Assembly (NCBI RefSeq): GCF_023195515.1
Contig: NZ_JALPKR020000002.1
Span: 3,821,001-3,885,000 of the forward strand
DNA length: 64,000 nt
Reading direction: 5' to 3'
Source: Variovorax sp. S12S4
GTDB taxonomy: Bacteria > Pseudomonadota > Gammaproteobacteria > Burkholderiales > Burkholderiaceae_C
Below are positions 24,759-63,742 of this stretch, one piece after another. Below the pieces are notes generated by a model. It saw only the letters and a list, made by a program, of their open reading frames with translations, did not search any database and was not told where the DNA came from. The number at the start of each line of letters is the position of its first letter. The stretch's first letter is position 1. A program made the position numbers and the translations under genes.

Positions 24759-24759
24759 C

Positions 24760-26983: not shown

Positions 26984-27129
26984 GATGGTCTCCCATCGAG
27001 TTGAGGGAGCCTCAGCATGCGCTGGCCGGACTGCAGCTGTCCTGGATGCAGCGCCCAAGCAGCGCCTGCTATTTCCGGGATAGACATCAGCTTTCGCGGC
27101 CATGTTTGGCCTACGGCAAGGGGCACAAT

Positions 27130-27196
27130 CGGCCAGGAGCAGACCTTCGTCGCTGCCTCACAACGAAGCCATCGGGAGCGCGTGCGCACTGACCAT
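27130..27196. repeat. 67-bp unit, inverted copy 1
   Basis: The reverse complement matches 34348-34414 over exactly 67 bases with 5 mismatches. It starts at ATGGTCAGTGCGCAC and ends at the TGGCCG core. No credible gene fits in it, so it looks like an empty or remnant cassette. Confidence 0.8.
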
Positions 27197-27255
27197 GGGG
27201 GTAGTCACAATTGGCCAGTAGCGGAAGTTCGCTGCTGCAGTCCACCGTAAACCAG

Positions 27256-27768
27256 ATGCCCAATTGGATGACCCGAATCGCCACCTTCCTACTCGTCCTC
27301 TTCCTGTGTGGGCGAGTCCCGGCCGAAGAGCTGACATTTGGCCGATTCATCATGTCTTGGCCAGACGGGTTCTCCCATGTTGAGGGCACCAGCCCGGCAA
27401 TCTACAGGGGCCCTGCGGGTGAGCGCGTCCGAATAGTCACGGTGCCTAATCGGCGCAATCGAACTGCGGAAGAGGCGCATGACGAGGTCCGAAAAATTGT
27501 TGGACAGACGACGCGAGAGTCTCGTGACCTCGAACGAGAGTTCGGGCGATCGCTCTGGCCCTTGAGAACCACTGTATCGTCCGCGGGCGATGTCCATATC
27601 TCGAGCGCAATGCAAAGCGACTCCAACAACATTCCGGGCTATGTCTTGAACTACGCAGTCGTTTCACCGCAAAGCGATTTCAGTCTCATCATGGTTGCTG
27701 GTGACGGCGACGCGTTTGAAGCCTTTGGGCGATTCAAAGCAGCTCTTGCATCTGCAAGATGGCGATAG
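27256..27768 (+). CDS. secreted/periplasmic hypothetical protein
   Basis: About 170 residues starting MPNWMTRIATFLLVLFLCGRVPAEE, a Sec signal peptide with cleavage probably before EEL. The mature part is a mixed alpha/beta domain (FIMSWPDGFSHVEG, IPGYVLNYAVV, GDAFEAFGRFKAALASARW) with no recognised family. A start at 27268 (MTRIATFLL) is also possible. The stop codon is followed within 8 bases by a repeat core, so this is one cassette of the array. Function unknown. Confidence 0.7.
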   Translation: MPNWMTRIATFLLVLFLCGRVPAEELTFGRFIMSWPDGFSHVEGTSPAIYRGPAGERVRIVTVPNRRNRTAEEAHDEVRKIVGQTTRESRDLEREFGRSLWPLRTTVSSAGDVHISSAMQSDSNNIPGYVLNYAVVSPQSDFSLIMVAGDGDAFEAFGRFKAALASARWR

Positions 27769-27834
27769 TCAATTCTCGGCCAGGAGCAGACATCTTTAGA
27801 CCCGTCAGCCCAGCCCATCTCTGGCTACAAACCT

Positions 27835-28247
27835 ATGACAAATCAAGTTCAGATCAACGCCGCGTCAGCAGTTGAGCAACTGCAAAGGCGCGCTGGAGGA
27901 AGGTTAGATTACTCCCCGCAAGTCTTCAAGCGGTGGAGGAAATCCTCGCGGAAGCAGCACATCAATCGCTAAAGTCCCAGGCGCGCGAGGCGTTAGTAGA
28001 ACTCCTGGGCTGCTACATCCTTGAAGTGGGCTTTCGAGAATTCGGCGGCAAGTGGAGTTGGTATGAGAAGGGCACGCAACCAGTCTTGGTTGTTGGCGAA
28101 CCCGAATTCCATGTGGCAATGATGTCGTTCGACAAAGTCCGAGGTCGCTTGTCCGGCGATGTGGGCGACAACATTCCGTTCTTCTATGCGGGGTTCTCAG
28201 AACGCGCTCGAAGTGCTGAACCTGGAGTCCGCGCAACCTACGTCTAG
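27835..28247 (+). pseudogene. hypothetical cassette gene with one-base frameshift
   Basis: Two frames read as one protein if one C is added in the CCCC run near 27914. The N-terminal MTNQVQINAASAVEQLQRRAGGRLDYSP then continues as ASLQAVEEILAEAAHQSLKSQAREALVELLGCYILEVGFREFGG. The total (413 = 3n+2) fits a single lost base and about 137 residues. The helical first half is followed by a compact alpha/beta half (VLVVGEPEFHVAMMSFDKVRGRL). Family not recognised. Repeat cores follow at 28289 (degenerate) and 28347. Confidence 0.62.
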
Positions 28248-28395
28248 ATCGCGCCGACGCCGTTGGAGGGTGCAATGAACGTCCGCTTCCGGCATTTCTG
28301 ACCGGCAGCTTGGGCTCTTTGCACCGACAGCCTGTCCGGCTACAGTCGGCCATGACCGGTCGTTGAGCTTCGACCGCTGATTGAAGGGAGAACAA

Positions 28396-28804: not shown

Positions 28805-28826
28805 CATGCCTGCAGTCGGCCAAAAC

Positions 28827-29141
28827 CGGACCTTCGCAAGCACTCAGGGTGCACCAACTGATGAACAACTTTCCTGCGTTTGGGTTTCTGCTGGCCTTCG
28901 CGGCCGTGGCACTGTCGCTCGGCGCACTGGTCCTCATTGGCTGCTTGGTCGTAGCGGCGATGTATCCTCGCGGCCATCCGTCCGCAGACCGATTGCGAAC
29001 GTTCGCCGCGCGCCTGCCTCGCCTCGTCGCCCGTAGCATCATGCTTTTCGACGGGCTGGCTTTCATATTCATCTTGGCCATGTTCGCGGTTCTGACATTC
29101 GTCTTCTCCTGACCTCGCCAGCAAGGACAGAATGCGGCCAG
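28827..29141. repeat. 315-bp duplicated cassette, copy A (inverted relative to copy B)
   Basis: Matches the reverse complement of 31497-31811 at equal length with very few differences. Homology begins at CGGACCTTCGC, just inside one repeat, and ends at the GCGGCCAG core of the next. It thus equals one gene plus its 3' repeat. Confidence 0.88.
28861..29112 (+). CDS. small two-helix membrane protein, copy A
   Basis: 83 residues with two long hydrophobic helices (FGFLLAFAAVALSLGALVLIG and about 20 residues near the C terminus, FDGLAFIFILAMFAVLTFVF). A basic loop lies between them (ADRLRTFAARLPRLVAR). An upstream in-frame GTG (28849) is an alternative start. It is identical except for Ile/Val at one position to the protein at 31526-31777 on the other strand. 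The stop is 23 bases before a repeat core. Function unknown. Confidence 0.75.
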   Translation: MNNFPAFGFLLAFAAVALSLGALVLIGCLVVAAMYPRGHPSADRLRTFAARLPRLVARSIMLFDGLAFIFILAMFAVLTFVFS

Positions 29142-29185
29142 AACCCGACTTTCGAGTGGCTGGCTTTCTAACCATTTTCAGCAGC

Positions 29186-29734
29186 ATGAAACTTGTTTTT
29201 GTCCATGGCCCCGTCGCTTCTGGAAAGCTGACCATTGCGAAGGAGCTCGGGCGCATGACCGGCTACGCCGTCTTCCACAACCACTTGGTGGTTGATGCCG
29301 TGGCAGCGGTGTTCCCTTTCGGAACCGAGCAGTTTGTGAGGCTGCGCGAAAAAATGTGGCTCGACATGTTGCGCGAGGCGGCAATGGCTAAGCGCTCTCT
29401 CATCTTCACGTTTGCGCCAGAGCCGACGGTCGTCGAAGGCTTCGACAGGCGGGTGGTGGAGAGCGTGAGGGCCGCCGGTGGCAGTACCCATTTTGTTCAA
29501 CTGACCGTTCCTGCAGCCGTACAAGAGGAACGTCTTACGGCACCGAGCCGGGCTGCTTTTGGAAAGCTTCAGTCGGTGGACCTTCTGCGTGAATTGCGCA
29601 CGCAGTTTGAAGCGTCCGAGCGGTTGATGCCGAAAGCGGAAGTAGTCATTGATACCTCCGCTCTCGGCCCTGCGGAGGCCGCGCGCGCGATTGCCGAAAC
29701 ATTGGGTTTGCCACTCCTGCCAACTCCTCACTAG
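29186..29734 (+). CDS. P-loop kinase-like AAA protein
   Basis: 182 residues from MKLVFVHGPVASGKLT. The Walker A GPVASGKLT lies at residues 7-15, followed by a substrate-binding-like segment FHNHLVVDAV and later an Arg/Lys-rich lid (VQEERLTAPSRAAFGKLQ). Size and layout resemble small-molecule kinases such as the shikimate/zeta-toxin-like AAA_18/AAA_33 groups found in integron cassettes. The real phosphate acceptor is unknown. It is the last plus-strand cassette before the array switches strand. No clear repeat follows the stop, which may be a sign of loss at the switch. Confidence 0.75.
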   Translation: MKLVFVHGPVASGKLTIAKELGRMTGYAVFHNHLVVDAVAAVFPFGTEQFVRLREKMWLDMLREAAMAKRSLIFTFAPEPTVVEGFDRRVVESVRAAGGSTHFVQLTVPAAVQEERLTAPSRAAFGKLQSVDLLRELRTQFEASERLMPKAEVVIDTSALGPAEAARAIAETLGLPLLPTPH

Positions 29735-29869
29735 TCGCGGCTATTTGGGACAATGAGGCGTCGGCTCAGCGGGAGGTCACACCGAGCGTCCGCTCCCCGG
29801 CAGGCTGAAGGTCAGCAGTGGGCCCATACCGGCTGTACAGTTTTCTCCAAAGCTGACCGTCGATGCGGC

Positions 29870-30559
29870 TTAGAGGTATTCCCGTAAGAGTGGGTTGGCT
29901 TGGTACAACGGCGCAATGACTTTCGAATTGCCATCGACCACAACCATGTCGTGCGCGTGATGCAGCCCGTTGTGCACCCGCACGTGAGGCGGCAAACTCC
30001 ACGTTCTCCCGGCGAGCGTCTTCAACTCGGCTTCGAGCGCGGAGGAAATCAGGATGGAAAGACCGTCATTGCTTTGCTCAGGAAGACTTGAGTGCAGATG
30101 AGGAAACTCCGGACTCACGAGCGAATAGCCGCATCCGAAGCGAGGCATGAGGAAGTGTTCCGAGCGAAGAGCCGGCGCTGCGTAATACGACCAAAATTCC
30201 TTCGGTACGACGATATACAGGGTGTTGGACCAATACGGTTCGGACTCAACTGTCGATAGATGCTCGACGTAGAAGCTCTTGCCCTGGAGGTACACCGCCT
30301 TGAAGGCGGCGTTCTGAGGTTGGGCAAAAACTCTTCCGATTGCTTTGCCTTTCCAGGTCTTCTCAACAATGTCCAAGAATGCATTGTTGAAATACACCGG
30401 AAACATGACGTGATCGATTTGAAGCTGCATTGCGTTTCTGGTCTCAGCGACAGGGTGGCTCTGTTCGGCAGCCTTAAGTAAATGGCTCGACAGGCCGGTA
30501 CTCGCAAGAGCCATGTAGGTAGCAAGTCGTCGTCGCGTCAACGGTTGAACCTTCATCAT
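29870..30559 (-). CDS. exported hypothetical protein (Tat-like signal; possibly DUF5829-like)
   Basis: About 229 residues from MMKVQPLTRRRLATYMALAST. The RRR followed by a hydrophobic stretch resembles a twin-arginine signal peptide. The mature protein has IDHVMFPVYFNNAFLDIVEKTW and GKSFYVEHLSTVE. This arrangement reminds one of the DUF5829/VOC-like lyase fold, but the assignment is tentative. Its start is about 50 bases from a repeat copy at 30607. No clear repeat follows the 3' end (29735-29869). Confidence 0.65.
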   Translation of the reverse strand: MMKVQPLTRRRLATYMALASTGLSSHLLKAAEQSHPVAETRNAMQLQIDHVMFPVYFNNAFLDIVEKTWKGKAIGRVFAQPQNAAFKAVYLQGKSFYVEHLSTVESEPYWSNTLYIVVPKEFWSYYAAPALRSEHFLMPRFGCGYSLVSPEFPHLHSSLPEQSNDGLSILISSALEAELKTLAGRTWSLPPHVRVHNGLHHAHDMVVVDGNSKVIAPLYQANPLLREYL

Positions 30560-30635
30560 CCCCGAGTGTTCTGAAGTTGTGGAGGGGCACCGTGAACGGC
30601 CGGTTCTGGCCGGCAACCGCCGGTGCTTCCTCGGC

Positions 30636-31007
30636 TCAGTCAGGGCCAGAAACATCCTCTCCAAACATCATGCGGTGACCGTCAATGGTCTCGATTCCAA
30701 ACTCTCGCATGCCCCAGGGCTCTGTACGAAGAGCCTTGACCATCTGAACACCCCGCGCAGCCAGATCCTTGTGCAAGCCAGTGACATCGTCGACCTCAAC
30801 GTAGGCCATATATGAATGCTCGCCCAGTTCCCGCGCGGCAGGTGTGTCCGGGCACTCTCCCGCCATGATGGTGCAGGCGTCGCGTCTGAACAGACGCCAG
30901 CCGGACACTTCCTTCCACTCGATCGAGAACCCCAGGACGTCGCGGTAGAAATCGGCGGACCGGGCCAGGTCGCGCACTGCGATCACGAACCGAGGTTGTT
31001 TGAGCAT
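30636..31007 (-). CDS. VOC (glyoxalase/bleomycin-resistance) family protein
   Basis: 123 residues with the paired beta-alpha-beta-beta-beta modules of the VOC fold. The opening FVIAVRDLARSADFYRDVLGFSIEW is diagnostic. Candidate metal ligands are His near residue 74 (LGEHSYMAYVEVDD) and Glu near residue 105 (EFGIETIDGHRMMFGED). Family members include glyoxalase I, ring-cleavage dioxygenases and antibiotic-binding proteins; the activity cannot be chosen. The repeat core at 30607 follows the stop by 24 bases. VOC proteins are frequent integron cassette cargo. Confidence 0.82.
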   Translation of the reverse strand: MLKQPRFVIAVRDLARSADFYRDVLGFSIEWKEVSGWRLFRRDACTIMAGECPDTPAARELGEHSYMAYVEVDDVTGLHKDLAARGVQMVKALRTEPWGMREFGIETIDGHRMMFGEDVSGPD

Positions 31008-31412: not shown

Positions 31413-31496
31413 AGTGGTAGCCACTCTTCCTCGCTCCTTTGTATGAGGCACATGCTTCTGGAAGACAAAACTGGACGTCCGCCAGAATGTCCGGTC

Positions 31497-31811
31497 CTGG
31501 CCGCATTCTGTCCTTGCTGGCGAGGTCAGGAAAAGACGAATGTCAGAACCGCGAACATGGCCAAGATGAATATGAAAGCCAGCCCGTCGAAAAGCATGAC
31601 GCTACGGGCGACAAGGCGAGGCAGGCGCGCGGCGAACGTTCGCAATCGATCTGCGGACGGATGGCCGCGAGGATACATCGCCGCTACGACCAAGCAGCCA
31701 ATGAGGACCAGTGCGCCGAGCGACAGTGCCACGGCCGCGAAGGCCAGCAGAAACCCAAACGCAGGAAAGTTGTTCATCAGTTGGTGCACCCTGAGTGCTT
31801 GCGAAGGTCCG
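31497..31811. repeat. 315-bp duplicated cassette, copy B
   Basis: Inverted copy of 28827-29141, exactly the same length, bounded by repeat cores at 31498 and 31815. Confidence 0.88.
31526..31777 (-). CDS. small two-helix membrane protein, copy B
   Basis: Same 83-residue protein as at 28861-29112, with Val in place of one Ile (VARSVMLFDG). Its presence on the opposite strand 2.4 kb away, with a repeat core 23 bases after the stop as in copy A, shows that gene and repeat were copied together. Possible upstream GTG start at 31789. Confidence 0.75.
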   Translation of the reverse strand: MNNFPAFGFLLAFAAVALSLGALVLIGCLVVAAMYPRGHPSADRLRTFAARLPRLVARSVMLFDGLAFIFILAMFAVLTFVFS

Positions 31812-31887
31812 ATCTGGCCGAGTGCGGGCTCTGCCTTAACGGACTCGAAGTCGCCTCGAGATCGAGAGCAAGGACGCAGCTAGCGCA

Positions 31888-32619
31888 CTAGACATCGAGC
31901 GCTCGCTGCCTGCGGATTTGACGTTTCTCCTCAGCACTAGGCGGCTTGTAGGCGTCGGAACGGCGTCGCCGGAGGGACTTTATCGCGGCAGATCTTGCGC
32001 GCATCGCACCAGGATCGGTCACCGTCTGGGCTTCTGCCCACTCCAATGAAGCTTCGATGGGCGCCCCTCTCAACGCGCACAGGCAAAGCGTCTGCTGATA
32101 TGCCGTCCCGGAGGCGGAGAATGTTCTGATCACGAGCTCTTGCAGTTTTTTCTGTTGTTCTTGCGGCGGCACCAACCCGTCATCGAAGCTCGTCAATCCG
32201 CTCAACGCGCCCAGCGCTCGCCAGAACGGATCATCTGGATCGTCCGATAGAGCGGTGGTCGACATGCAGTAGTCCAACAACACCGTTACGCTAGATTCAG
32301 CGTGAACTTCACTTAAAACCGCAATGGCAAATGTTGCGAGCGCTCGATCGGCGAGCAAATGCTTCAGTGAAGCGATGCCGCCGCGGCCGTAGCCGACGCA
32401 GACTGCAGCCCACCGCGCGAGCGGCGTTACTCTTTTTCCGTCTGCCAGCACGCCGTCCTGGTGCCATCCATGCTGCTTGCAGAGCCGCTCAATCTCATCA
32501 GCACCGTCCGCGCCGTAAGCAACTGAGAACCGAATCAAGTCTTCCGGATGAACCGTGCCACCGTAGGACGGTGGGCCGGATCCCTTGGCGGCCTTGCGGG
32601 CAAGATCATTGAATTTCAT
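31888..32619 (-). CDS. hypothetical helical-repeat protein
   Basis: About 243 residues from MKFNDLARKAAKGSGPPSYGG. Mostly helical, rich in Ala/Leu, with HEAT-like segments (WAAVCVGYGRGGIASLKHLL, LATFAIAVLSEVHAESSVTVLLDYC) and a basic C-terminal tail (RRRRSDAYK, RQIRRQRALDV). No signal peptide. The opening resembles hypothetical proteins found with toxin/immunity loci, but no family is assigned. The repeat core at 31815 lies about 70 bases beyond its stop. Confidence 0.66.
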   Translation of the reverse strand: MKFNDLARKAAKGSGPPSYGGTVHPEDLIRFSVAYGADGADEIERLCKQHGWHQDGVLADGKRVTPLARWAAVCVGYGRGGIASLKHLLADRALATFAIAVLSEVHAESSVTVLLDYCMSTTALSDDPDDPFWRALGALSGLTSFDDGLVPPQEQQKKLQELVIRTFSASGTAYQQTLCLCALRGAPIEASLEWAEAQTVTDPGAMRARSAAIKSLRRRRSDAYKPPSAEEKRQIRRQRALDV

Positions 32620-32711
32620 GGGAATTCGGCGGGCGTGCTTGCAGCGATTATGTCGTTCGCCAGCTGCCATCTAGGCCAACGTGGCGAAAGTCTGCTTTTG
32701 GCCGATGGCCG

Positions 32712-33191
32712 TCAAATTGCATCTAGAGCCGCGGTTAAATCCCGCGTGCCGTCCTCGCCCCACCAAGGAGCCTCCACCCTGCCGCCGAGGCGCTGAAGCT
32801 CGCGCAGCAAATGGAGCAATGATTCGACCTGCGCGTTTGCCCATTCCGCTCCCATCCGGTAATCAATGATGAGCCGGTCGGCAAGAACAAAGATCCCGAG
32901 CAAAGGAATTGGGCACTTGAGCCCAACGATGTCTGCAAGGACGACGTGAAATGGCGCTGCGATGCCTGACGCCACCAAGCTTGCGTCACCTGGACCGGTA
33001 AACGGCTTCTCCAATTGCGTCTCCGAAATCCGGAGACAGCCGCCACCGTGCGTTACGTTCTTGGCGCCGCGCTCGTACAGATGTCCAAACGCCACTGGGA
33101 TTGATGATGCGCTGTCAAAGATGACTTCGATCTGAGGAAGCGAGCCGTCATCCGTGTCGAAGTAGTTTGTTAGTACCACGTTTTGAACCAA
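32712..33191 (-). CDS. hypothetical protein
   Basis: 159 residues, start MVQNVVLTNYFDTDDGSLPQ. Cytosolic, mixed alpha/beta; ends in a helical hairpin (QVESLLHLLRELQRLGGRVEAPWW). Composition and length recall immunity proteins of contact-dependent toxins, but no family was recognised. A repeat core at 32699 lies 8 bases from its stop codon, one of the tightest gene-repeat joints in the array. Confidence 0.66.
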   Translation of the reverse strand: MVQNVVLTNYFDTDDGSLPQIEVIFDSASSIPVAFGHLYERGAKNVTHGGGCLRISETQLEKPFTGPGDASLVASGIAAPFHVVLADIVGLKCPIPLLGIFVLADRLIIDYRMGAEWANAQVESLLHLLRELQRLGGRVEAPWWGEDGTRDLTAALDAI

Positions 33192-33267
33192 AGAATTTTG
33201 GGAGACAAGCCGTCCGTCAGCCGAGGTGCCCAGGACAGCCGATGACCGCTACTGGCCGAATGTTGCG

Positions 33268-33606
33268 CTAATCGAAGGGGATGTAGGCACCGTCGTCAGC
33301 CTTGTCAAAACGGCTGCCCGGCGCAGCCCCCAGATGAGGGATCACCGCTGGGTCGTAGTTGGCAACCGTGTTCAGGTCGTAAACCCCGTGGTTGCCATCC
33401 CTCGCCATGTACGCCTCGTCTTCGTCGCCGGCGAAGAAGCGCCAGCCGCTGTCGCCACCCGCGACAGGCGTCTCCCGGTGCATGTATCCGATGGGGAGCC
33501 CGTCGACCATGATTCGGTCCGTCGCCACGCACCAGCCGACCGACTCCACAAGCGGCTTGAGGTCTTCACTTTTGATCCTGAAGTTCTTCGCTGTGCTCGC
33601 ATTCAT
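33268..33606 (-). CDS. DUF2185 (Imm33-like) immunity-type protein
   Basis: 112 residues. The core GWCVATDRIMVDGLPIGYMHRE, SGWRFFAGDEDEAYM and LNTVANYDPAVIPHL is the pattern of the DUF2185/Imm33 domain, found in predicted immunity proteins of polymorphic toxin systems. No toxin gene adjoins it, which is usual for orphan immunity cassettes. A repeat core at 33253 lies 10 bases past the stop, and another (33640) lies 34 bases upstream of the start. Confidence 0.78.
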   Translation of the reverse strand: MNASTAKNFRIKSEDLKPLVESVGWCVATDRIMVDGLPIGYMHRETPVAGGDSGWRFFAGDEDEAYMARDGNHGVYDLNTVANYDPAVIPHLGAAPGSRFDKADDGAYIPFD

Positions 33607-33624: not shown

Positions 33625-33705
33625 CCGAAGGTCTGCTCATGGCCGACTGTAGCCGGTCGCGGCCCCGGGCTTTGAGCCTAGGGCGGACGGTGACGCTCTC
33701 CCGGA
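33625..33705. repeat. extended cassette repeat
   Basis: Full-length variant: GGTCTGCTCA, TGGCCGACTGTAGCCGGTCG, then GGCCCCGGGCTTTGAGCCTAGG and CGGACG. The second GC-rich block can fold on itself, so the element has two arms. Confidence 0.75.
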
Positions 33706-33726: not shown

Positions 33727-34296
33727 TCACACAACGTCGAAGACGCCCCACCAAGGCTCCATAGTCGGGTCGGGGGCGGGGTTGTGACGCCTGTACTCCC
33801 AAGCATCCGCTGAAAGCCGAACCTCAGTCGGCGCGATGTCGCGAAAGGTCACGAACGCATCGCATCCCTGCACCTGCTGTACGAACTCGCCCTGATCACT
33901 CGGCGACCACGTGACAAACGACTGACCCACCCCATACGTGGAATGGCGCGAGAGGTATTGAATGACGGTCAGATCCATCTTGTACTGCAACCGGAGCCAC
34001 AGTCGGATCGCCGGCCATCGATACGCCTCTTCGTCTTCGGGAGGCAAGCGCAACAGGCGATTGATCGCTATCTCAAATCTGGCACCGCGATCCATCGTCC
34101 CCAGATGCGCATCGAATGCAAGGCCATCACCGCCGGGCTCAAGCACCGGGTACGCGACGGCCGTAGCGCGAAACTGCGTCGTCGCAGCCAGTGCGCCAGC
34201 CAGATTCAAGGTCTTGAGCAGCAGCCGCTGCGCCTTAAGGAATGCGCGGAAGTCCTTCTCGACTTGCGGTGAAGAAATCTGCCCTTGAGCGTTCAT
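33727..34296 (-). CDS. hypothetical protein
   Basis: 189 residues from MNAQGQISSPQVEKDFRAFL. A helical N-terminal half (AQRLLLKTLNLAGALAATTQF) is followed by an alpha/beta part with RWPAIRLWLRLQYKMDLTVIQYLSRHS and Trp-rich ends (EPWWGVFDVV). No signal peptide, no recognised family. An extended repeat lies 35-90 bases past the stop, so this is a cassette of the usual type. Confidence 0.64.
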   Translation of the reverse strand: MNAQGQISSPQVEKDFRAFLKAQRLLLKTLNLAGALAATTQFRATAVAYPVLEPGGDGLAFDAHLGTMDRGARFEIAINRLLRLPPEDEEAYRWPAIRLWLRLQYKMDLTVIQYLSRHSTYGVGQSFVTWSPSDQGEFVQQVQGCDAFVTFRDIAPTEVRLSADAWEYRRHNPAPDPTMEPWWGVFDVV

Positions 34297-34347
34297 CTGG
34301 AGGTGGTTGCGTCGAATGTCTGGTCTTGGGAGATTGTTGACCGCCCG

Positions 34348-34414
34348 ATGGTCAGTGCGCACACGCTCTGGATCGCTTCGTTGTGAGGCAGCGACGAAGG
34401 TCCGCTCCTGGCCG
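34348..34414. repeat. 67-bp unit, copy 2
   Basis: Direct-strand partner of 27130-27196 (62 of 67 identical in reverse complement). It starts at ATGGTCAGTGCGCAC and ends with the TGGCCG core, after which the two copies diverge. Confidence 0.8.
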
Positions 34415-34428
34415 CATTCTGCCCTTGC

Positions 34429-34941
34429 TCACTCGCCTGCGGCCAGGCTTCGCAATCGCTCCAGAATCAAGTTGGCAGCCTCGCTCGCGCTGACGAGCGC
34501 CGAATCAATGACCAGGCGGGGTGTGGTCCAGGCCTCGTATTCATGGCGAAGGACCGCCTCCCAGGTTGGCAGAGTGTGCTCCGGGATGTCAGCTTTGCGG
34601 CTCTCCACACGCCTGCGGTGTTCGGTTGGGTCAGAGCACATGATTTCAACCTCGAGCAAGCCGGAGGATGTGCTGGTTGCCACAGCCCGCCACGCTTCGC
34701 GAGTGATCGAGAGCGGATTGACGCAATCGACAACTACTGTCATGCCAAGCGCGAGATTGGACCTCGCAAGCTCGTAGGCAACGATGTAGCCTGCTGGGCC
34801 AACCTCCTCGAGAACGCTCACCTTTATGAGCGCTTGCTCAATGGAGTCGATGCGTAGATAGACAGAGGGCGAACGGCCAACAAGCTCGCGCGCTATGGCG
34901 GTTTTTCCGGTGCCCGGTAGCCCGCCGAGAACAATCAGCAT
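34429..34941 (-). CDS. P-loop kinase (AAA_33/zeta-toxin-like)
   Basis: 170 residues from MLIVLGGLPGTGKTAIARELV. Walker A GLPGTGKTA lies at residues 7-15. A lid-like Arg-rich segment follows (CSDPTEHRRRVESRKADI), then the WEAVLRHEYEAW motif near residue 125 seen in the AAA_33 family of predicted nucleoside/aminoglycoside-type kinases. Substrate unknown. The frame is open to 35064, but the internal ATG gives the normal N terminus. The stop lies 14 bases from a repeat core (34409-34414). Confidence 0.8.
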   Translation of the reverse strand: MLIVLGGLPGTGKTAIARELVGRSPSVYLRIDSIEQALIKVSVLEEVGPAGYIVAYELARSNLALGMTVVVDCVNPLSITREAWRAVATSTSSGLLEVEIMCSDPTEHRRRVESRKADIPEHTLPTWEAVLRHEYEAWTTPRLVIDSALVSASEAANLILERLRSLAAGE

Positions 34942-34984: not shown

Positions 34985-35045
34985 CGAAAGTCCGCCTTTG
35001 GCCGACTGTAGCCGGTCGCTGGCTCAGAGCTTCGGGCGAAATATC
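34985..35045. repeat. extended cassette repeat
   Basis: AAGTCCGCCTT, TGGCCGACTGTAGCCGGTCG, then GGCTCAGAGCTTCGGGC. Same two-block plan as the copies at 33625, 42406 and 45823. Confidence 0.78.
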
Positions 35046-35115: not shown

Positions 35116-35664
35116 TCAGCTCCGGCATGCCTCACCGGAATCTAGATGCAGTCGAAAGGGCTTCCACCCGCCCGGCGGGTCCCACTCGGCATTGCCAAAA
35201 ATCTGACCATCTCGAACTCTCTGAACAATGACACCATCGACCCCAAGTTCGGACTTCCTCCACAGGAGCTGACCAGTTCCGTCGAAGCGCAACAATTCTG
35301 AGGCCGACGCAACCAATACCGAGGAACCAAGTTCCGATGACTCAAGATCACTCGAAGTGAGTAGGTGGCCAAAGTAGCCATCGAGCGAGTGCGACGCCAA
35401 GTCGCCTGTCCTGGGAGAGAACACGGCAACTTGCTCGCCATAGCCGATGTAAATCAGTTCGCCAACGCAGCGCACATCCTGAAAGCAGGAATACCCAACG
35501 CCTGCGAGTAAATCAACTCGCCATTTAGCCTCTGCCCCTAGGCTGATCCCGACAGCCGCAACGGCAGATGCCGTCGAGCCGGAAAGGCCGCCTAATACAA
35601 AGCGATCAACATCTTGCCAGTCGCTAACGTCCTCAGCAGTGATGAAGGTTGCCCGCATGATCAT
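35116..35664 (-). CDS. hypothetical beta-rich protein
   Basis: 182 residues. Alternating short beta stretches (GELIYIGYGEQVAVFSPRTGDLASH, SSVLVASASELLRFDGTGQLLW) look like blades of a PQQ/WD-type propeller fragment. Start at ATG 35664 (GGGGAG upstream) or 35658. No signal peptide. An extended repeat lies about 75-130 bases past the stop. Family unknown. Confidence 0.64.
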   Translation of the reverse strand: MIMRATFITAEDVSDWQDVDRFVLGGLSGSTASAVAAVGISLGAEAKWRVDLLAGVGYSCFQDVRCVGELIYIGYGEQVAVFSPRTGDLASHSLDGYFGHLLTSSDLESSELGSSVLVASASELLRFDGTGQLLWRKSELGVDGVIVQRVRDGQIFGNAEWDPPGGWKPFRLHLDSGEACRS

Positions 35665-35764
35665 TGCTCCCCAGTCTACCGAGGTGCAATCGATGGGCTG
35701 TCAAGGCGGATTGCCCGGACGCTTACGGCGCGGCGAATGGCTGGTTGTGGCCGCGTGCCGCAGT

Positions 35765-35929: not shown

Positions 35930-36021
35930 GGTCGGCCCTGATTGATGTGTAGCAAATGATTGTCTTGGAATGGAACGTCTGTGCCAACTTCCGCTTTTGG
36001 CCGAACTCTGTCAGTCTGGCG

Positions 36022-36354
36022 CTATCGAGGCTGGGCCTCGAAACGCAACAGTTTGACCCTTGTACCCACCGGCACGTCGGTGTTTGACAGCCCGGCAAAT
36101 GCAATCACGCCCGGCGCGTGTATGGGGCTGACAAGGGCCACGGACGCGAAGTGCTGGGTAATTGAACCGTCCGGCAACGTCAGTTCGACGCGCAAGCGGG
36201 CCGCCTCGCAATGGGGTTTCAGCCTAGGCATTGGCAACGATGAGACAGCGTTCGCCAAGACGAAGTACGGCGAGTCCAACGTCGCCGACAAAGACGAACG
36301 GCCTCCGCGCAGCGGCATGGCTTCGGACGCACTGATTCGGAATTGGACGGACAT
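36022..36354 (-). CDS. hypothetical beta-sandwich-like protein
   Basis: 110 residues from MSVQFRISASEAMPLRGG. Mostly beta structure (YFVLANAVSSLPMPRL, ARLRVELTLPDGSITQHFASVALV, TRVKLLRFEAQPR). No signal peptide. Start codon lies 4 bases from the repeat copy at 36358, and the 3' repeat core is at 35998, so this cassette is tightly packed. Family unknown. Confidence 0.66.
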   Translation of the reverse strand: MSVQFRISASEAMPLRGGRSSLSATLDSPYFVLANAVSSLPMPRLKPHCEAARLRVELTLPDGSITQHFASVALVSPIHAPGVIAFAGLSNTDVPVGTRVKLLRFEAQPR

Positions 36355-36447
36355 GATGAATGGCTGGTTCTGGCCGACTGTAGCCGTTACAGCGACTGAT
36401 GCAACGGGCAAAAAGCCGTCATAGGCCCCGCCCAAAGCAGACGCCGC

Positions 36448-36871
36448 TCAGCCATCAATTTCGAGTACAGCGAGTTCCCCGGTGAACTCAATGGCCTCCC
36501 CTATTTGCAAGGAGTGGCTCTTTTCCGTTTCCACACGAATCGCCGGTCCGCCTTTCTGAGATTAGGCAGTGAAAGCTGTAGGCGTCAGGGCTGTCAAGGA
36601 CCGTGTTTGCGATCGTGCAGCGGGGCGACAAAGCCGTCGGTTGCACAAACGAGGGCCTCACTGGAGAAACTTGCGGACGTATCTCGTTGACAAACTGGAT
36701 CTTGATCTGAGAGCAGAATCCGCTTCCTTCCACGAAACGCTCAACTTCTCGATTGTTCTCTTGGGACTCGATGGCTCCAATCCAATAAACGGCTCCACCG
36801 TCGACCACGACTTCGAGAGTGCGTTCGTATCCGTTGCGAACGATGCGGCTCAGTTTTCCGTTTAACTGCAT
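36448..36871 (-). pseudogene. hypothetical cassette gene, probable frameshift near the C terminus
   Basis: Start MQLNGKLSRIVRNGYERTLEVVVDGGAVYWIG. The written frame runs on to a low-quality tail ending at 36488. A one-base shift near 36560 instead joins a convincing ending, GGPAIRVETEKSHSLQIGEA then IEFTGELAVLEIDG-stop at 36448 (424 = 3n+1, about 140 residues). Beta-rich, no signal peptide, family unknown. The 3' repeat core is at 36371. Confidence 0.58.
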
Positions 36872-36983
36872 GTGTTGATCGTAGGGCTGCTTTGGCCGAC
36901 TGTAGCCGGTCGCGTTGCCGTCGCGAAACGGCCCGAAGCGGCTGTTCATACACCTCCGCATCGAGCCGTCGGAAATCCAAACC

Positions 36984-37280
36984 CTACAGCTCCAGGACGA
37001 ACGCGAGACCGTCCCAGGGATACCAGACAAGGTAGCCTGTCGCGACAGCGGCCGCCGCAGCGGAGATTAAACGTCGAGTCGTTGCCCAGTCGATCAGGGA
37101 CCACGCGAGGCCAGGAAATACAACACACAGCGACCATATCGCCGCCAATTTGATCCTGCGGAGGTCGACTGGCTCAAGGTGGCCGGCAAGGGGATGAGGA
37201 ATGATCCAAAGGCAGAGCGGCACGAGCCATGGAGCGACGCACAGCAGGATGTGAACTGGGAACCCTCGCTGACTGGACAT
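36984..37280 (-). CDS. small membrane protein
   Basis: 98 residues from MSSQRGFPVHILLCVAPWLV. Three hydrophobic segments (ILLCVAPWLVPLCLWIIP, LAAIWSLCVVFPGLAWSLI, ISAAAAAVATGYLVWYP) with short loops. No recognised family. The start lies 20 bases from the repeat at 37302, and the 3' repeat is at 36893. Confidence 0.68.
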   Translation of the reverse strand: MSSQRGFPVHILLCVAPWLVPLCLWIIPHPLAGHLEPVDLRRIKLAAIWSLCVVFPGLAWSLIDWATTRRLISAAAAAVATGYLVWYPWDGLAFVLEL

Positions 37281-37320
37281 GTGATTTTCAGTTTCCGCTT
37301 CTGGCCGCAAGCCACTGATG

Positions 37321-37734
37321 CTAGTCGCCGCGAACGCCGACGACGCTACGCAGCCCAACTAGGTCAGGCGGGTCCGATTCGACAAAGAAGAGGTCCTCTG
37401 CCACGCCCGTGACGTTATCGGTAATGCCGATGACGAACTCGCGGCCCAAAGCAGAGTGCAGTTTTGCGAGATGCTCGGTGATGCGCGCAACGTCGCCGAA
37501 CCAACCTTCGGGCTCGTCGCCTGGGTCGGGCAGGACCAAGTTGATGCCAAGCTCCCAGTCAGGCAAATCGTCAGGGTAGCCGCCGATCGCGGTTCTCTTC
37601 TGGTTCACCACGGTCGGCCTCGATGCGACCCAGCCTGGCGCTGCGGCAAGCGCCACGAGCGCTTCCTCGATGGGCGCGACGACGTCATCTAGGTCTGAGC
37701 CGTCTACGTACGCATACAGAGTGTGTCGTTGCAT
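37321..37734 (-). CDS. hypothetical protein
   Basis: 137 residues, MQRHTLYAYVDGSDLDDVVA. An acidic alpha/beta protein with LVLPDPGDEPEGWFGDVARI and REFVIGITDNVTGVAEDLFFVE. The last part resembles immunity-type domains, but no family name is safe. The stop codon (37321-37323) lies 14 bases from the repeat core at 37302-37307. Confidence 0.68.
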   Translation of the reverse strand: MQRHTLYAYVDGSDLDDVVAPIEEALVALAAAPGWVASRPTVVNQKRTAIGGYPDDLPDWELGINLVLPDPGDEPEGWFGDVARITEHLAKLHSALGREFVIGITDNVTGVAEDLFFVESDPPDLVGLRSVVGVRGD

Positions 37735-37786
37735 GGTTCTACTGGAGGCTGAGTGGGAAGATCCGGTTGTGGCCGCCTTCAGAAGT

Positions 37787-38145: not shown

Positions 38146-38508
38146 CTATTTGGGCAGCCGTCCGGTGTCCATGAGATATCCCACGAAATCATCGTGAAGG
38201 CCTTCGCCTACTCTGCTGCCGTGTTCATCAACCACGTAGAGGCGCCCCTTCTCGGCAAGAGCCGTGCCGCCATCCAATGCAACCAGGAATGAATGCCCGA
38301 GACCACGAAAGCACTCCGAAAGGACCTTCGCCAGAGTTTCTCTTGGCACCCCAGCGGCGACAAGAGCGTGTTGAATCTCGCGATACGGCTTCTCGTCTTC
38401 TACCCAAACAAGGTCGGATTGAGGGTCGGTGAGGGCTTCCGACGCAGCTGTCGACCACGCCTCCAGTGCCCTTGCCATGTCCTCAAAAAGGTCGTTCTTT
38501 GTAGCCAT
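38146..38508 (-). CDS. hypothetical protein
   Basis: About 120 residues from MATKNDLFEDMARALEAWST. A helical N-terminal half, then LAKVLSECFRGLGHSFLVALDGGTALAEKGRLYVVDEHG, which resembles small cytosolic immunity proteins in layout. Starts at 38517 or 38592 are also open. The adjoining repeat (38128) is degenerate, and the next lies upstream at 38550. Confidence 0.64.
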   Translation of the reverse strand: MATKNDLFEDMARALEAWSTAASEALTDPQSDLVWVEDEKPYREIQHALVAAGVPRETLAKVLSECFRGLGHSFLVALDGGTALAEKGRLYVVDEHGSRVGEGLHDDFVGYLMDTGRLPK

Positions 38509-38588
38509 AGGATCCATGCGAATTGATGCCGGTGTCGAACGCTCGGTCTCGGCCGATTCTTGCCGCACCGGTGCACCTCGATCATCGA

Positions 38589-39013: not shown

Positions 39014-39101
39014 GAATGGACGTTTGATTGGCCGCGAAGGTCCGGTCTTGGCTGCATTTTGCCTTCGACTGGCGCCCCTCGATCAGGACGCCAACAACCC
39101 G

Positions 39102-40178: not shown

Positions 40179-40217
40179 AAGTCCTGCCATGTGTCCGGTC
40201 CTGGCCGGCAGCTGGCC

Positions 40218-59134: not shown

Positions 59135-59261
59135 CCGGTTCGGTGCGAATTGCTATTGAGGCGCTGGAGGGAACTGAAAAGCCGCTGATGCTGGCCGATT
59201 GTTGTCCGTCGCGTGTCAGTGCGCGCGCGCTTCGGGAACGTCCGGTTCTGGCCGACTGGCC

Positions 59262-59606
59262 TCAACCCATACGTGCGCCAGCTTCGGCATTTGGGTAGAC
59301 GACCGCGAAGTCGGCAGGGCGCTCCGCCTCATCAAGCGGTGAAGTTCCGACTGTGGCTGAATCGGCCAACCGGTTCTCATAGATCATTTCGTTCTCTAGG
59401 AGTTCGATCACGAAGGGGAGTGCTGCATCCAGGTTTTCGGTGGACAGATAGATGAGCATTGCATCAGTTCCGTCTTCGTAGTCAAAGCCGCTGCCCGTCA
59501 GAATTCCGCTCGAAACCTGAGCCAGGCGATTAGGCACAACGTATCGAAGATCAGTATCTGGGTTCTCCATACGGCGGGGGTCAAGACGAATCAAGACTGA
59601 CGGCAT
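59262..59606 (-). CDS. hypothetical protein
   Basis: 114 residues, MPSVLIRLDPRRMENPDTDL. An alpha/beta fold with DAMLIYLSTENLDAALPFVI and an acidic, variable C terminus. Resembles small immunity-type proteins in size. The stop overlaps the end of the repeat at 59249, the same joint as in array part 1. Family unknown. Confidence 0.66.
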   Translation of the reverse strand: MPSVLIRLDPRRMENPDTDLRYVVPNRLAQVSSGILTGSGFDYEDGTDAMLIYLSTENLDAALPFVIELLENEMIYENRLADSATVGTSPLDEAERPADFAVVYPNAEAGARMG

Positions 59607-59713
59607 ATTCCGCCCTCAAGTGTTTTGGGATGACCGGTTCGTGGCAACTCTGCCCGCATGCGCATTTCCGCTTTTGGCCGATTGTTGTCCTATGGGAGCG
59701 GGAGCTTCATCAA

Positions 59714-60654: not shown

Positions 60655-61587
60655 TCAACCCATATGCGCGCCCCGCTTTCGGCGCCCCATCATCAGCCCT
60701 CTTAGGTAGGATGCAATTTCCGTGTGCCCCTGCGCCTTGGCGAGATCTTCCGGGAGCATTCCTCGGGTCGAACGCAATTCCAAGCTCGCGCCAGCCTTCG
60801 TTAGCACGCGCACGATTTCTATCGATCCGGCCCCGGACGCGACGTGCAGCGGTGAGAGCCCACCATACACGCCATCAGCGCAATCAAGATGATTCAGTGA
60901 GACGCGATGTTTGACCATGACGCGAATCACGCCTAGGTCTTCTTGAAGAACTGCATGGCATACAGGGCGCAATCCGGCAAGGTCCTTCGCTTCTCCGTCG
61001 ACGCCATTGGTCAACAGAAAGTCTGCAGCGTCAGCGTGGCCTGAGAAAATTGCAGTGTTCAAGACGGAAGTTTTGGTCAGGGAAGTCACGTTGAAGTTGG
61101 TCTTGTAGAGACTCAACAACTTCAGCATCTTCAATGCGTTCTGGCTCGTGTTGGCGTAGTGAGCGACGGCATAGTCGTCGTTCCTGACGCCATTTTGGTA
61201 GTTCGGATTTGCACCATGAGCCAGCAGATAGTGAGCTGTTCCCAGATTTCCCGCATCTGCGGCAATCAAGAGTGGCGAATCCCTCCTGATGTCTTGTGTC
61301 GGCAAATCGACTGTCGCGCCATGCTCAACGAAAAGCGCAAGCATCTTCGCATCACCGATGCGTGCGGCGACATGCGTTGCCGAAGTACCTGATCCCGAGA
61401 ATGGCGTGTTTGGAACGAAGCCACGCTGAAGCAGCTTTTCTGCCCGCGAGTAGTTGAGAGTCTCGATGGCCTCCAACATCTCTTGTTCGCTCGCCGATGC
61501 TTCGGTCGCTCGTTGTGCAGATGCCGCGCTGGCGTACACCAGCAATACGGAAGCAATAGCGGTGCAGAAAGTTCGTAACAGATTCAT
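60655..61587 (-). CDS. exported ankyrin-repeat protein
   Basis: 310 residues. Signal peptide MNLLRTFCTAIASVLLVYAS with cleavage near ASAQ. About six ankyrin repeats follow (TSATHVAARIGDAKMLALFV, SPLLIAADAGNLGTAHYLLA, LSPLHVASGAGSIEIVRVLT), with the TPLH-type and GA-D signatures. Bacterial periplasmic ankyrin proteins bind partners, for instance protecting against catalase or toxin partners. Lies 17 bases downstream of the 241-residue gene, in the same unit. Confidence 0.82.
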   Translation of the reverse strand: MNLLRTFCTAIASVLLVYASAASAQRATEASASEQEMLEAIETLNYSRAEKLLQRGFVPNTPFSGSGTSATHVAARIGDAKMLALFVEHGATVDLPTQDIRRDSPLLIAADAGNLGTAHYLLAHGANPNYQNGVRNDDYAVAHYANTSQNALKMLKLLSLYKTNFNVTSLTKTSVLNTAIFSGHADAADFLLTNGVDGEAKDLAGLRPVCHAVLQEDLGVIRVMVKHRVSLNHLDCADGVYGGLSPLHVASGAGSIEIVRVLTKAGASLELRSTRGMLPEDLAKAQGHTEIASYLRGLMMGRRKRGAHMG

Positions 61588-61604
61588 TTGCCGTCCAAAA
61601 TGAA

Positions 61605-62330
61605 CTATCGCGCGAAGCGCCGCAGGATTTCGGGGTCGTTGGCAAGTGCAGTTCGTCCGATCGTTGCCAAAAGCGAATAGATAGCAGCAAGCAGAGAGAC
61701 TTGAACGCACGGATCTTTTCTCGCGGCCGAAATATTTCGACCCCAGTCCAGAAGCGCGTTCGCATCTTCGAGGCTATGCGTGTACCCATAGAACACCCGA
61801 AATCCGCTGATGGTGAGGCCAACATGATCCGGCAGGAGCCTCGCGAATCGCCATCCTTTGCGCTCAACAAAATCGGCAACCTGGTCGAGTCCACGGCGTT
61901 CTCCGAAGCAGATCGAACGAAGGCTGATGAGCACGAGCAGCGCCGTACACCGATAGGCGGCCGCATCATCGATTTTTGAGGGCAGATGGCGGCTGACTCC
62001 GAGCGAGCCCTGGAATGATTGCTCAGGCAATTCGGCGAGCGCAGCCAAGACTGCAACAAATCCCTCGTTGCCCAGAACCGGATCGAACGCAGATGGCCCT
62101 GATTTCCAGCGTGCAAGTATCAGTTGTGCGTCTGACCAGAAGGATTCCTTCCCTTTGAGGGCAGCTTCAGCCATGCCGGCCAAGTACTCGTTGGGATGAT
62201 CAATGAGTTCGTCTAGATCAAGCGGAGTCGAGCGAACGTTCGCTTGGCGAAGATCGGTCGACTCAAAGGGCAAAAGTTTTTGCACCTTTTGAAAGAGGAC
62301 CTGCAGTTCACGGTCAGCAAGCAAGGTCAT
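61605..62330 (-). CDS. hypothetical protein
   Basis: 241 residues, MTLLADRELQVLFQKVQKLL. Mostly helical, with AGMAEAALKGKESFWSDAQL and LLVLISLRSICFGERRGLDQ. No signal peptide, family unknown. It overlaps the small frame at 62314-62485 by 17 bases and precedes the ankyrin gene by 17 bases, suggesting one transcript. Confidence 0.66.
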   Translation of the reverse strand: MTLLADRELQVLFQKVQKLLPFESTDLRQANVRSTPLDLDELIDHPNEYLAGMAEAALKGKESFWSDAQLILARWKSGPSAFDPVLGNEGFVAVLAALAELPEQSFQGSLGVSRHLPSKIDDAAAYRCTALLVLISLRSICFGERRGLDQVADFVERKGWRFARLLPDHVGLTISGFRVFYGYTHSLEDANALLDWGRNISAARKDPCVQVSLLAAIYSLLATIGRTALANDPEILRRFAR

Positions 62331-62485
62331 GGCGCTTTGACTTTGGTCTGGTTTTTTTCACCCCGCCAATGTTTGGCGTTGGCGGCATTTTGTCTTCTGC
62401 GCCGGCCGACAGTTCATCCACATTAACTTCGCAGGGGCGTAGGAAGCGATTGGGTCGCGGCGGCAAGGACGTAATAGGTAGCCAT
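62314..62485 (-). pseudogene. possible 56-residue cassette gene with one-base frameshift
   Basis: ATG at 62485 reads M-A-T-Y-Y-V-L-A-A-A-T-Q-S-L-P-T. Removal of one C in a CCCC run near 62442 joins it to CEVNVDELSAGAEDKMPP and a basic end (KKTRPKSKRHDLAC). 172 bases = 3n+1 fits one inserted base. The stop overlaps the start of the next gene. Evidence is moderate: it is short and family is unknown. Confidence 0.4.
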
Positions 62486-62554
62486 GGGCTTTCAGTTGCA
62501 GCGTATTCAGAGGCGCAGTCGACTGGCCGGTTTTGGCCGCTTGCCGTCCGTTGC

Positions 62555-62827
62555 TCATTGAGCGCTTTCAAGGGCCGCGATGTATGGCAGGACTTGCGGA
62601 TGGGCCTGAACCCACTGCTCGCCCAAAAACGTCGATACGGAGCCCAAGCCAGTGACGCTCACGATTGACCCGAACTTCGAAGCGGCCTGCAGCAGGTCGT
62701 GCGCAGCATGCATCACGTTCTCACTCGCAGCCGACTCCGGCTCGCCAGCTTCGATGCCCCACTCCTTCTGAATCGCCGCGATGAGCTTGCCGGCGGCGGC
62801 CTCGAGAGGTGTTGGTGAACGTGTCAT
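62555..62827 (-). CDS. small hypothetical protein
   Basis: 90 residues from MTRSPTPLEAAAGKLIAAIQ. Helical, acidic middle (GIEAGEPESAASENVMHAAH) and a helical end. The repeat core at 62534-62539 lies 16 bases past the stop and a second copy lies 40 bases upstream of the start, so this is a one-gene cassette. Family unknown. Confidence 0.62.
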   Translation of the reverse strand: MTRSPTPLEAAAGKLIAAIQKEWGIEAGEPESAASENVMHAAHDLLQAASKFGSIVSVTGLGSVSTFLGEQWVQAHPQVLPYIAALESAQ

Positions 62828-62948
62828 GAGCGCGAATCTAACCTGCTGGTGAAGGTCTGGTTCTGGGCCGGATTCTGCCGTGGACGCTTTGACTTGATCG
62901 TGAGCAACCCGGCCAAACTCCGGCATCAAATCAAATGGCCCACATCAT

Positions 62949-63506
62949 TCAACGAAGATCCGAAAGGAGAGGGAGAGCCAGGAGAGCTTGTGGAAGTCGA
63001 GCACTAAACGAGTTGTTTTTCATCCACTGGAGGTACGTCTTCCACCCTGGCATAGCGTTTAACTCGCGAAGTTGCTTGCGCTCCTCGATTGACAGCGGGT
63101 TCGCGTCACGCGCAGCGAGAATGTCGCCACCATATAGTCGCTGTGAATCAGCGGACATGTAGATGATCTTGTGACCCATGGGGGTCTCAAACGCTTCAGC
63201 CATTTCAGTTGCTTCGGTCGGAGAGAGTTCCGCACTAAGCACGTCTACGAAAGCTGGCAGAAGTTCTTCCGGCTTGGCGGCAGCTACTCGCTCCATGAAG
63301 AGATGGGTTTGCTCTGCTTCAACACTTGCAGGTGGCCTCTTTGCTACCTTCAGGTAGGCGGCAGCCCGAGCTTGAAACCGCTCTACTGCGCCGAAAGCAT
63401 GAACAAATCTTTCAATCTCGGGCCGTGGAGTTGGGTCTTCGGCGAACGCCGGTACGTAAGACCCAAAGAAGATGGCAAGCGCAAACAAAGAGATGTAGCG
63501 TTTCAT
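62949..63506 (-). CDS. exported DUF2059-like protein
   Basis: 185 residues. Signal peptide MKRYISLFALAIFFGSYVPA, mature end near AFAEDP. Residues 75-140 (THLFMERVAAAKPEELLPAF, LSPTEATEMAEAFETPMGHK) follow the DUF2059 pattern of helical periplasmic proteins. Function unknown. The last gene before the final repeat copy of the array. Confidence 0.72.
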   Translation of the reverse strand: MKRYISLFALAIFFGSYVPAFAEDPTPRPEIERFVHAFGAVERFQARAAAYLKVAKRPPASVEAEQTHLFMERVAAAKPEELLPAFVDVLSAELSPTEATEMAEAFETPMGHKIIYMSADSQRLYGGDILAARDANPLSIEERKQLRELNAMPGWKTYLQWMKNNSFSARLPQALLALPLLSDLR

Positions 63507-63742
63507 TTTTCTAGTACCGAGAAGATCGTTCCATACGGCTGTCTAAGTGCCGGGTCCAACCAACGCCGCCGCAGTCGCCAATGGCCGCTCCTGGCCGACT
63601 GTAGCCTCGCGACCGTCCGCGACGAAGGTGAAGCGTTTGCCGACGGCCTCGTCCAGCCTGACCCAACTTGCTCAAGTCCTGGATTGAACCTATTCGTTCC
63701 AGTGGATACCCACGGTCGGTCATCGCAACGGCCATCGCTTCG

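Follow-up and report, generated by a model that had tools for sequence, protein, structure and literature searches.

In a 64,000-bp stretch of the Variovorax sp. S12S4 genome (hereafter the window; C2:3,821,001–3,885,000 of the 5.97-Mb genome, contig NZ_JALPKR020000002.1), small genes are separated by copies of a short element with a TGGCCG core. The locus raises the question of whether these genes are cassettes that move one at a time and, if they are, where the exchange takes place and which enzyme carries it out. The initial annotation of the window had read the array as mobile cassettes with junctions at TGGCCG, in an integron-like arrangement without the parts of an integron. The analysis reported here agrees with that reading: the array likely consists of single-gene cassettes that are mobile and are transferred by site-specific recombination, in a system that is analogous to an integron but uses different parts. 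A two-way layout and a central hub, which were absent from the initial annotation, are added.

Sites, units and the point of exchange

In an alignment of 38 copies, the conserved positions run from about −13 to +14 relative to the T of TGGCCG, and the 28-bp site has the consensus GAAnGTCYGSTYY-TGGCCG-AnTGYnGCC. The hexamer is itself over-represented in the window (159 observed versus 67.8 +/- 7.5 in shuffles), but it is the longer element, rather than TGGCCG alone, that carries the real signal. An ungapped weight matrix built from 31 copies found 40 sites at a score of at least 12, from 27,122 to 63,605, where 0.7 were expected by chance (1.14 per 100 kb in the base-shuffled sequence of 90 loci). 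This bears out the earlier count of about 40 copies lying between small, mostly unrelated genes. Three or four of these may be degenerate or chance matches (39650, inside a recombinase coding sequence; 55533, between the two blocks; 59178; 62366), and the matrix overlooks a few gapped copies (31802, 36879). Beyond the window, six further sites (score ≥10) extend the array to about 67.5 kb.

The site is not a dispersed repeat, as 29 of the 37 matches in the genome at E ≤ 0.01 fall in 40 kb, or 0.7% of its length. Seven of the other eight form three small clusters (C2:2616–2618 kb, 2751–2757 kb and 4814 kb). Sites were present in 96 of the 101 genomes in a survey of the genus, and 90 of 250 genomes from the taxonomic family of the window had sites at E ≤ 0.01, in most cases one to a few. 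A variant, the ACTGT type, accounts for 117 of 553 copies and often has a partial inverted partner, which is enriched in this group only. A large attC-like palindrome was considered as a general feature of the 553 copies and was rejected, as the pairing of an arm with its own flank was no better than with the flanks of other copies (11 of 16 or more paired in 11% with the own flank, 9% with other copies' flanks and 5% with shuffled flanks). Site-like sequences within the recombinase coding regions (26908, 39650) are largely explained by the codons of a conserved GQK..PFKL motif (median p 0.40 over 78 genes, p<0.05 in 10%).

Units were collected from 46 of 48 loci searched, the window among them. 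The longest open reading frame (ORF) ends with its stop codon ahead of the site in 324 of the 396 units, is antisense in 70 and is lacking in two; the corresponding figures for the window alone are 25, six and one. The polarity of gene, stop and site claimed earlier thus holds in most units, and the minus-type copies at 27777, 28817 and 29135 are indeed preceded by plus-strand genes. A stop codon and its site are a median of 24 bp apart, a site and the next start 33 bp (n=323), and the median unit length is 542 bp. The 396 units fell into 344 clusters. A Pfam scan of 100 of 286 cluster representatives found 50 families, including acetyltransferases, AAA_33, Arr-ms and Imm33, and among the matches listed no family had more than three members. 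The units are a diverse gene store.

To locate the ends of shared units, 40 array regions chosen for strong site matches were compared together with the window and nine other loci. Non-self matches of 200–3000 bp with at least 80% identity that lay away from contig ends were counted (n=195). Both ends of the match were within 15 bp of a site core in 75 of the 195, versus 0.6% under random placement, and at least one end was in 131, versus 9.7%. Identity switches inside the invariant TGGCCG at 74 and 77 junction pairs: the bases before the T track the left body, those after the hexamer track the right body, and identity across is at background. The same switch can be followed letter by letter in an inverted duplicate within the window (28.8–29.15 kb versus 31.5–31.83 kb). 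None of 58 homologous unit pairs from different loci with known neighbours shared a neighbour, a comparison of species representatives rather than of strains of one species; the conserved gene order that would have told against mobility was therefore not seen. One unit copy is 96.5% identical within a single window and units 90–98% identical occur in other species, which points to fairly recent movement.

Read from these alignments, single units are shown to have travelled from array to array within the genus without their neighbours, with the exchange mapped to the 6-bp TGGCCG, and movement at this hexamer is well supported. On the same reading a unit has the form right arm–gene–left arm, and units join at left arm–TGGCCG–right arm. 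Exchange at the hexamer implies a further arm, of 13 bp, at the 5' end of every unit. Duplication of whole half-arrays in inverse orientation was also considered and was rejected, as only two within-array duplicate pairs passed clustering, both in the same half. The inverted pair of the window is absent from the clustered duplicates because its right-hand site is gapped.

Two-way arrays and the GGGCCC hub

Of 81 array regions, 70 had at least four sites (score ≥13); the layout of these 70 was one-way in 34, strictly minus-then-plus in 27 and of another kind in nine. Polarity switched from minus to plus 37 times and from plus to minus 10 times, an asymmetry that is the same whichever strand is read: the genes converge on a centre. 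At the centre of the array in the window is a hub, made up of the left arm, GGGCCC and the inverted left arm. In a first set of regions, all 10 two-arm GGGCCC sites (both arms ≥3 bits) were at the centre or at the matching array end. A second set of 40 newly fetched regions, partly from genomes already used, gave eight of nine hub-consistent two-arm sites (the exception is in L254), versus 40 of 147 other GGGCCC (p = 4e-4). Over both sets the figures are 18 of 19 and 68 of 292. These counts leave out GGGCCC whose weaker arm scores 0–3 bits and those with no site within 3 kb. The opposed arrangement of half-arrays about a palindromic hub is shown as a pattern, and its meaning is inferred.

Exchange between a minus and a plus site preserves the two-way layout, and directional exchange therefore predicts one fixed centre per array. 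Two other explanations of the centre were set aside. A conserved gene was not found there, as some centres have a unit in common and most do not. Insertion of units at the hub itself, considered on paper, would place plus sites to its left or minus sites to its right. In many ACTGT-type sites (for example L175, L171, window 45821) a second motif, ..GGGCCCGAAGCnG.., lies some 30–70 bp further on and is like half a hub.

The candidate recombinase and competing explanations

As the initial annotation had noted, the window encodes two short tyrosine recombinases. These, rec1 and rec2, are both of 207 aa, and neither is an integron integrase. The catalytic R-K-H-R-H-Y residues of rec2 lie in its PF00589 domain (R58, K86, H155, R158, H181 and Y190) and are fully or almost fully conserved across 32 aligned relatives. 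In rec1 an Asp replaces the histidine of the LLGH motif (LLGD), which is invariant in the same relatives. Matches of rec2 start at residue 107–130 of XerA/XerC/XerD-type models, past the core-binding part. Its predicted structure is of moderate quality (predicted local distance difference test, pLDDT, 69.7; predicted template modelling score, pTM, 0.59), with low confidence in the first 17 residues, and its nearest fold neighbours are XerA, Cre and XerH (template modelling score at most about 0.5); the integron integrase 2a3v ranks 29th (E 7e-4). From these models the family of about 207 aa appears to consist of a catalytic domain and to lack the core-binding domain that is usual in such enzymes. 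Simple tyrosine recombinases usually have both, according to the 2021 classification of Smyshlyaev, and a family without the core-binding domain is not among the subgroups in section 7 of that work (PMC8138268).

At least 8000 proteins match rec2. Recombinases 99% identical to those of the window are present in named Variovorax records, and relatives occur in many other genera. Among 70 family genes with a 600-bp flank on both sides, 39 had a site within 600 bp (about two expected from the shuffle null). The 58 sites near them fall mainly into two arrangements found in several genera, downstream minus (29) and upstream plus (20), with five and four in the other two; the upstream-plus sites are mostly 120–200 bp from the recombinase start, and the site at 27122 lies upstream of rec1. 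In the genus, a site was found within about 1.5 kb of 25 of the 30 best-scoring family loci versus four of 26 other tyrosine-recombinase loci, which were picked by hand; one of these controls lies inside the window, and without it the count is three of 25 (p = 1e-7). The linkage of recombinase and site suggested earlier is supported by position, but at E ≤ 1e-30 the family is present in no more than 40 of the 101 genomes surveyed in the genus. For this reason the role of the recombinase is inferred. A class-wide survey found it in 15 of 274 genomes at the same threshold, some of these matches being partial. At nine loci (L068, L069, L073, L076, L081, L088, L097, L099, L103) the recombinase lies between two inverted sites, upstream plus and downstream minus, and so resembles a unit with two right-arm ends.

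The rec2 family is probably the enzyme of the system, and XerC/XerD or another recombinase acting in trans is its main rival. In the mechanism that we propose, a recombinase of this family would bind both arms of the site and exchange strands over TGGCCG. Excision would give a circle with one site, which could re-insert at any other TGGCCG site. The hexamer is one-way and would maintain polarity through excision and insertion, while inversions between the halves would leave the two-sided pattern as before. The hub hexamer differs from TGGCCG, so that the hub would not exchange with ordinary sites and would serve as a fixed centre.

Several observations weigh against this account. A filled and empty pair (A-B versus A-C-B) was found in none of the regions compared, and the evidence is comparative and between species, with no circle or reaction observed. 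The antisense units and the nine regions that are neither one-way nor strictly two-way depart from the general pattern. A GGGCCC site with both arms over threshold was found at six of 17 first-set centres, some GGGCCC being present at 15. Of the recombinase genes, 31 of 70 have no recognisable site within 600 bp, nine of the 58 sites are otherwise arranged, and rec1 lacks a conserved histidine. The family gives no match at E ≤ 1e-30 in 61 of the 101 genomes of the genus, 56 of which nevertheless have sites, and the presence of the recombinase changes site number little (median 9 versus 5, p = 0.10). By eye, tyrosine recombinases lie more than 100 kb from the fetched arrays in two genomes (G026, G063), and in a third (G059) a 434-aa recombinase of another type lies about 2 kb from an array.

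These last points bear most on the alternative that the units are mobile but that host XerC/XerD, or another recombinase, acts in trans on dif-like sites and the short recombinase is a passenger. The 56 array genomes (of 96) that lack the short recombinase speak for it, as does the 434-aa recombinase in G059. The layout of the site (an arm of about 11–13 bp, 6 bp, an arm of 9–11 bp) resembles that of dif, and passages of PMC6449649 provide a precedent in the pdif modules. We nevertheless regard this alternative as unlikely. Successive sites along a half-array are mostly direct and do not alternate, and a passenger would need neither of the two set arrangements of sites seen at the short recombinase in several genera. 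The site is also G+C-rich, unlike the AT-rich dif consensus; a single dif-like pattern had no match in this genome, which weighs neither way.

Alternatively, the arrays might be fossils whose units were formerly moved by an enzyme that is now mostly lost, as the many arrays without a local recombinase and the damaged rec1 would suggest. This is similarly improbable: the catalytic residues are kept in rec2, and unit copies as similar as those described above, both within one window and between species, are at odds with it. Passive shuffling by homologous recombination between short dispersed repeats, of the repetitive extragenic palindromic (REP) or terminator type, is a very poor candidate. 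The element does lie directly after stop codons, as a terminator might, and the partial inverted partners of the ACTGT type could be read in the same way, but the exchange is limited to 6 bp of a 28-bp element, the copies are clustered rather than genome-wide, a recombinase is linked to them, and pairing of the arms with their own flanks is no better than with those of other copies, both being slightly above shuffled. Finally, a true integron with a very divergent IntI and attC can practically be dismissed: small diverse single-gene cassettes of fixed polarity, genes such as those for acetyltransferases, Arr-ms and Imm33, a recombinase reading away at one end and the weak fold match to 2a3v would all suit it, but the IntI model TIGR02249 gives rec2 18.9 bits against a cut-off of 265 and does not list rec1, it exceeds the cut-off in one of 101 genomes of the genus (G046, with one site) and falls just under it for a broken IntI copy in G010 (264.3 bits, three sites), the exchange is in TGGCCG rather than at AAC/GTT, the general attC-like palindrome is missing and many of the arrays are bipolar. 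The absence of IntI and of attC-type ends from the window had been correctly noted, and the genome-wide repeat that the initial annotation had allowed for as an alternative was not found.

Window features, known systems and significance

The features of the window are listed in Table 1. The insertion sequence at 40903–42406 has the ends GATTGTGTTGAAAAAC; relevant ends were also found at L276:343 and 18502 and at L182:19319, and in L276 a similar end lies next to a site-like left arm. This insertion sequence may target the cassette site. Certain insertion sequences target attC, and others are reported to target pdif. Outside the array, a tRNA-Pro gene precedes a phage-type integrase that is broken into two overlapping frames (24493–26009; frames 24724–25569 and 25083–26009), apparently the decayed integrase of an island beside the array; a second copy of the 3' end of tRNA-Pro, as the island end, was not found in the window. 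A flavin mononucleotide (FMN) riboswitch is present at 3899–4072.

Table 1. Sites, hub, recombinases and cassette genes of the window (positions in the window; scores from the ungapped matrix)
Feature	Position	Strand	Remarks
rec1, short tyrosine recombinase 1	26360..26983	-	207 aa from ATG aligning with relatives; outside left end of array, reading away
Site 1, outermost left	27122..27149	-	score 28.9; upstream of rec1, attI-like
Site 2	27204..27231	-	score 20.8
Cassette ORF, 185 aa (start uncertain)	27211..27768	+	no Pfam match
Site 3	27769..27796	-	score 23.1
Site 4 (ACTGT type)	28339..28366	-	score 28.9
Site 5, end of unit duplicated at 31484-31829	28809..28836	-	score 33.5
Cassette ORF, second copy inverse in right half-array	28849..29112	+	
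Site 6, last of left half-array	29127..29154	-	score 33.3
Last gene of left half-array (start uncertain)	29132..29734	+	weak AAA resemblance, under Pfam cut-off
Hub, palindromic two-arm site gaaggtcagcagt-GGGCCC-ataccggctgtac	29807..29838	.	at polarity switch
First gene of right half-array	29870..30664	-	start uncertain, ORF overruns next site
Site 7	30593..30620	+	score 25.0
Site 8	31484..31511	+	score 33.5
Site one base short, right end of duplicated unit	31802..31828	+	overlooked by ungapped matrix
Cassette ORF	31888..32670	-	
Site	32685..32712	+	score 31.4
Cassette ORF	32712..33191	-	
Site	33239..33266	+	score 28.9
Cassette ORF	33268..33606	-	
Site (ACTGT type)	33626..33653	+	score 33.1
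Cassette ORF	33727..34296	-	
Site (hexamer degenerate)	34313..34340	+	score 26.5
Site; unit up to 35005 common to L203 at 92%	34395..34422	+	score 33.5
Cassette gene	34429..34941	-	longer reading 34429-35064 matches AAA_33 over cut-off
Site (ACTGT type)	34985..35012	+	score 31.2
Cassette ORF	35116..35664	-	
Site	35734..35761	+	score 27.8
Site	35984..36011	+	score 30.1
Cassette ORF	36022..36354	-	
Site (ACTGT type)	36357..36384	+	score 35.6
Cassette ORF (start uncertain, overruns gapped site 36879)	36488..37030	-	
Gapped site (ACTGT type)	36879..36906	+	overlooked by ungapped matrix
Site	37288..37315	+	score 23.1
Cassette ORF	37321..37734	-	
Site	37756..37783	+	score 25.2
Cassette ORF	38146..38592	-	
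Site after rec2	39035..39062	+	score 28.5
rec2, short tyrosine recombinase 2, 207 aa	39102..39725	-	R58 K86 H155 R158 H181 Y190 present; itself an array unit
Site	40188..40215	+	score 19.4
Cassette ORF, resembles unit before 31484	40218..40568	-	
Site	40614..40641	+	score 24.4
Cassette ORF, unit common to L186 and L202	40684..40869	-	
Left part of site split at GGCC by insertion sequence	40884..40902	+	
Insertion sequence, DDE transposase frames 40953-41675, 41416-42300	40903..42406	+	within site, GGCC both sides
Right part of split site (ACTGT type)	42407..42425	+	
Site	42958..42985	+	score 26.3
Cassette ORF	43002..43298	-	
Site	43312..43339	+	score 28.4
Cassette ORF	43386..44096	-	
Site	44148..44175	+	score 24.9
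Cassette ORF	44175..44948	-	
Weak site	44926..44953	+	score 15.3
Cassette ORF	45026..45292	-	
Site; unit up to 45841 common to L030	45586..45613	+	score 18.0
Cassette ORF	45613..45804	-	
Site (ACTGT type)	45821..45848	+	score 33.7
Cassette ORF	45916..46338	-	
Site	46365..46392	+	score 29.9
Cassette ORF	46419..46694	-	
Site	46713..46740	+	score 31.2
Site, last before 12-kb interruption	46749..46776	+	score 22.8
Site, second block	59235..59262	+	score 26.6
Cassette ORF, unit common to L176	59262..59606	-	
Site	59661..59688	+	score 32.5
ORF in long stretch without strong sites (59.7-62.5 kb)	60655..61710	-	
Site; unit to about 62871 common to L180, L189, L198	62520..62547	+	score 26.7
Site with one extra base	62850..62877	+	score 11.4
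Cassette ORF	62949..63506	-	
Site (ACTGT type); array goes on past window to about 67.5 kb	63578..63605	+	score 32.4

By the features tested, the system works like an integron and yet is not one. Both have small diverse single-gene units in large chromosomal arrays, with the site after the gene and a single exchange zone, and in both many arrays have no local recombinase. The one-way arrays (34 of 70 regions) also share the fixed polarity of an integron. In attC the exchange is at the R-box core AAC/GTT. The site described here is not attC in exchange point or in general fold, the recombinase is not IntI, the units have a 13-bp 5' arm and many of the arrays are two-way around a palindromic hub. 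Integron arrays without an integrase are known as clusters of attC sites lacking integron-integrases (CALIN), as passages of PMC9024848 describe.

The dif modules of Acinetobacter, on which XerCD acts, share with these arrays a short two-arm site with a 6-bp centre. The arrays described here differ in being chromosomal, with tens of units and a linked recombinase family, and in the G+C-richness of the site. In the passages of PMC6449649 that describe pdif modules, genes are likewise moved as units, and a module is flanked by oppositely oriented sites (XerC/D and XerD/C), whereas successive sites here are mostly direct repeats within half-arrays. Short DNA invertases of the FimB/FimE type are similar in length (about 200 aa; 198–200 in the NCBIfam models), and rec2 matches NF007371 over the catalytic region (E 2.3e-6), but at 27.3 bits it is far below the cut-off of 222 and would act on arrays and not on a single switch. 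XerA/XerC-like simple tyrosine recombinases are the best sequence-model and fold neighbours of rec2, which is about 55–95 residues shorter. REP elements, the bacterial interspersed mosaic elements (BIME) and terminator repeats differ in occurring genome-wide. A search of the open-access PMC literature, with subscription papers and preprints outside its scope, found no description of such a system.

On balance we lean towards regarding these 'hub arrays' as a third, independently evolved gene-cassette system besides integrons and dif modules, with a recombinase reduced nearly to its catalytic domain, circles joined at TGGCCG and a GGGCCC hub. If this is true, the hub fixes the centre while gene content is gained, lost and inverted and the layout is preserved. 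In textbooks, the integron is the means by which bacteria store single genes and shuffle them. If there is a second large system that uses another site and another enzyme, a reservoir of unknown small genes is probably missed by the tools used to find integrons. With its minimal recombinase and 28-bp site, the system also lends itself to asking what makes cassette exchange directional, and the arrays offer a natural test of why a centre is needed.

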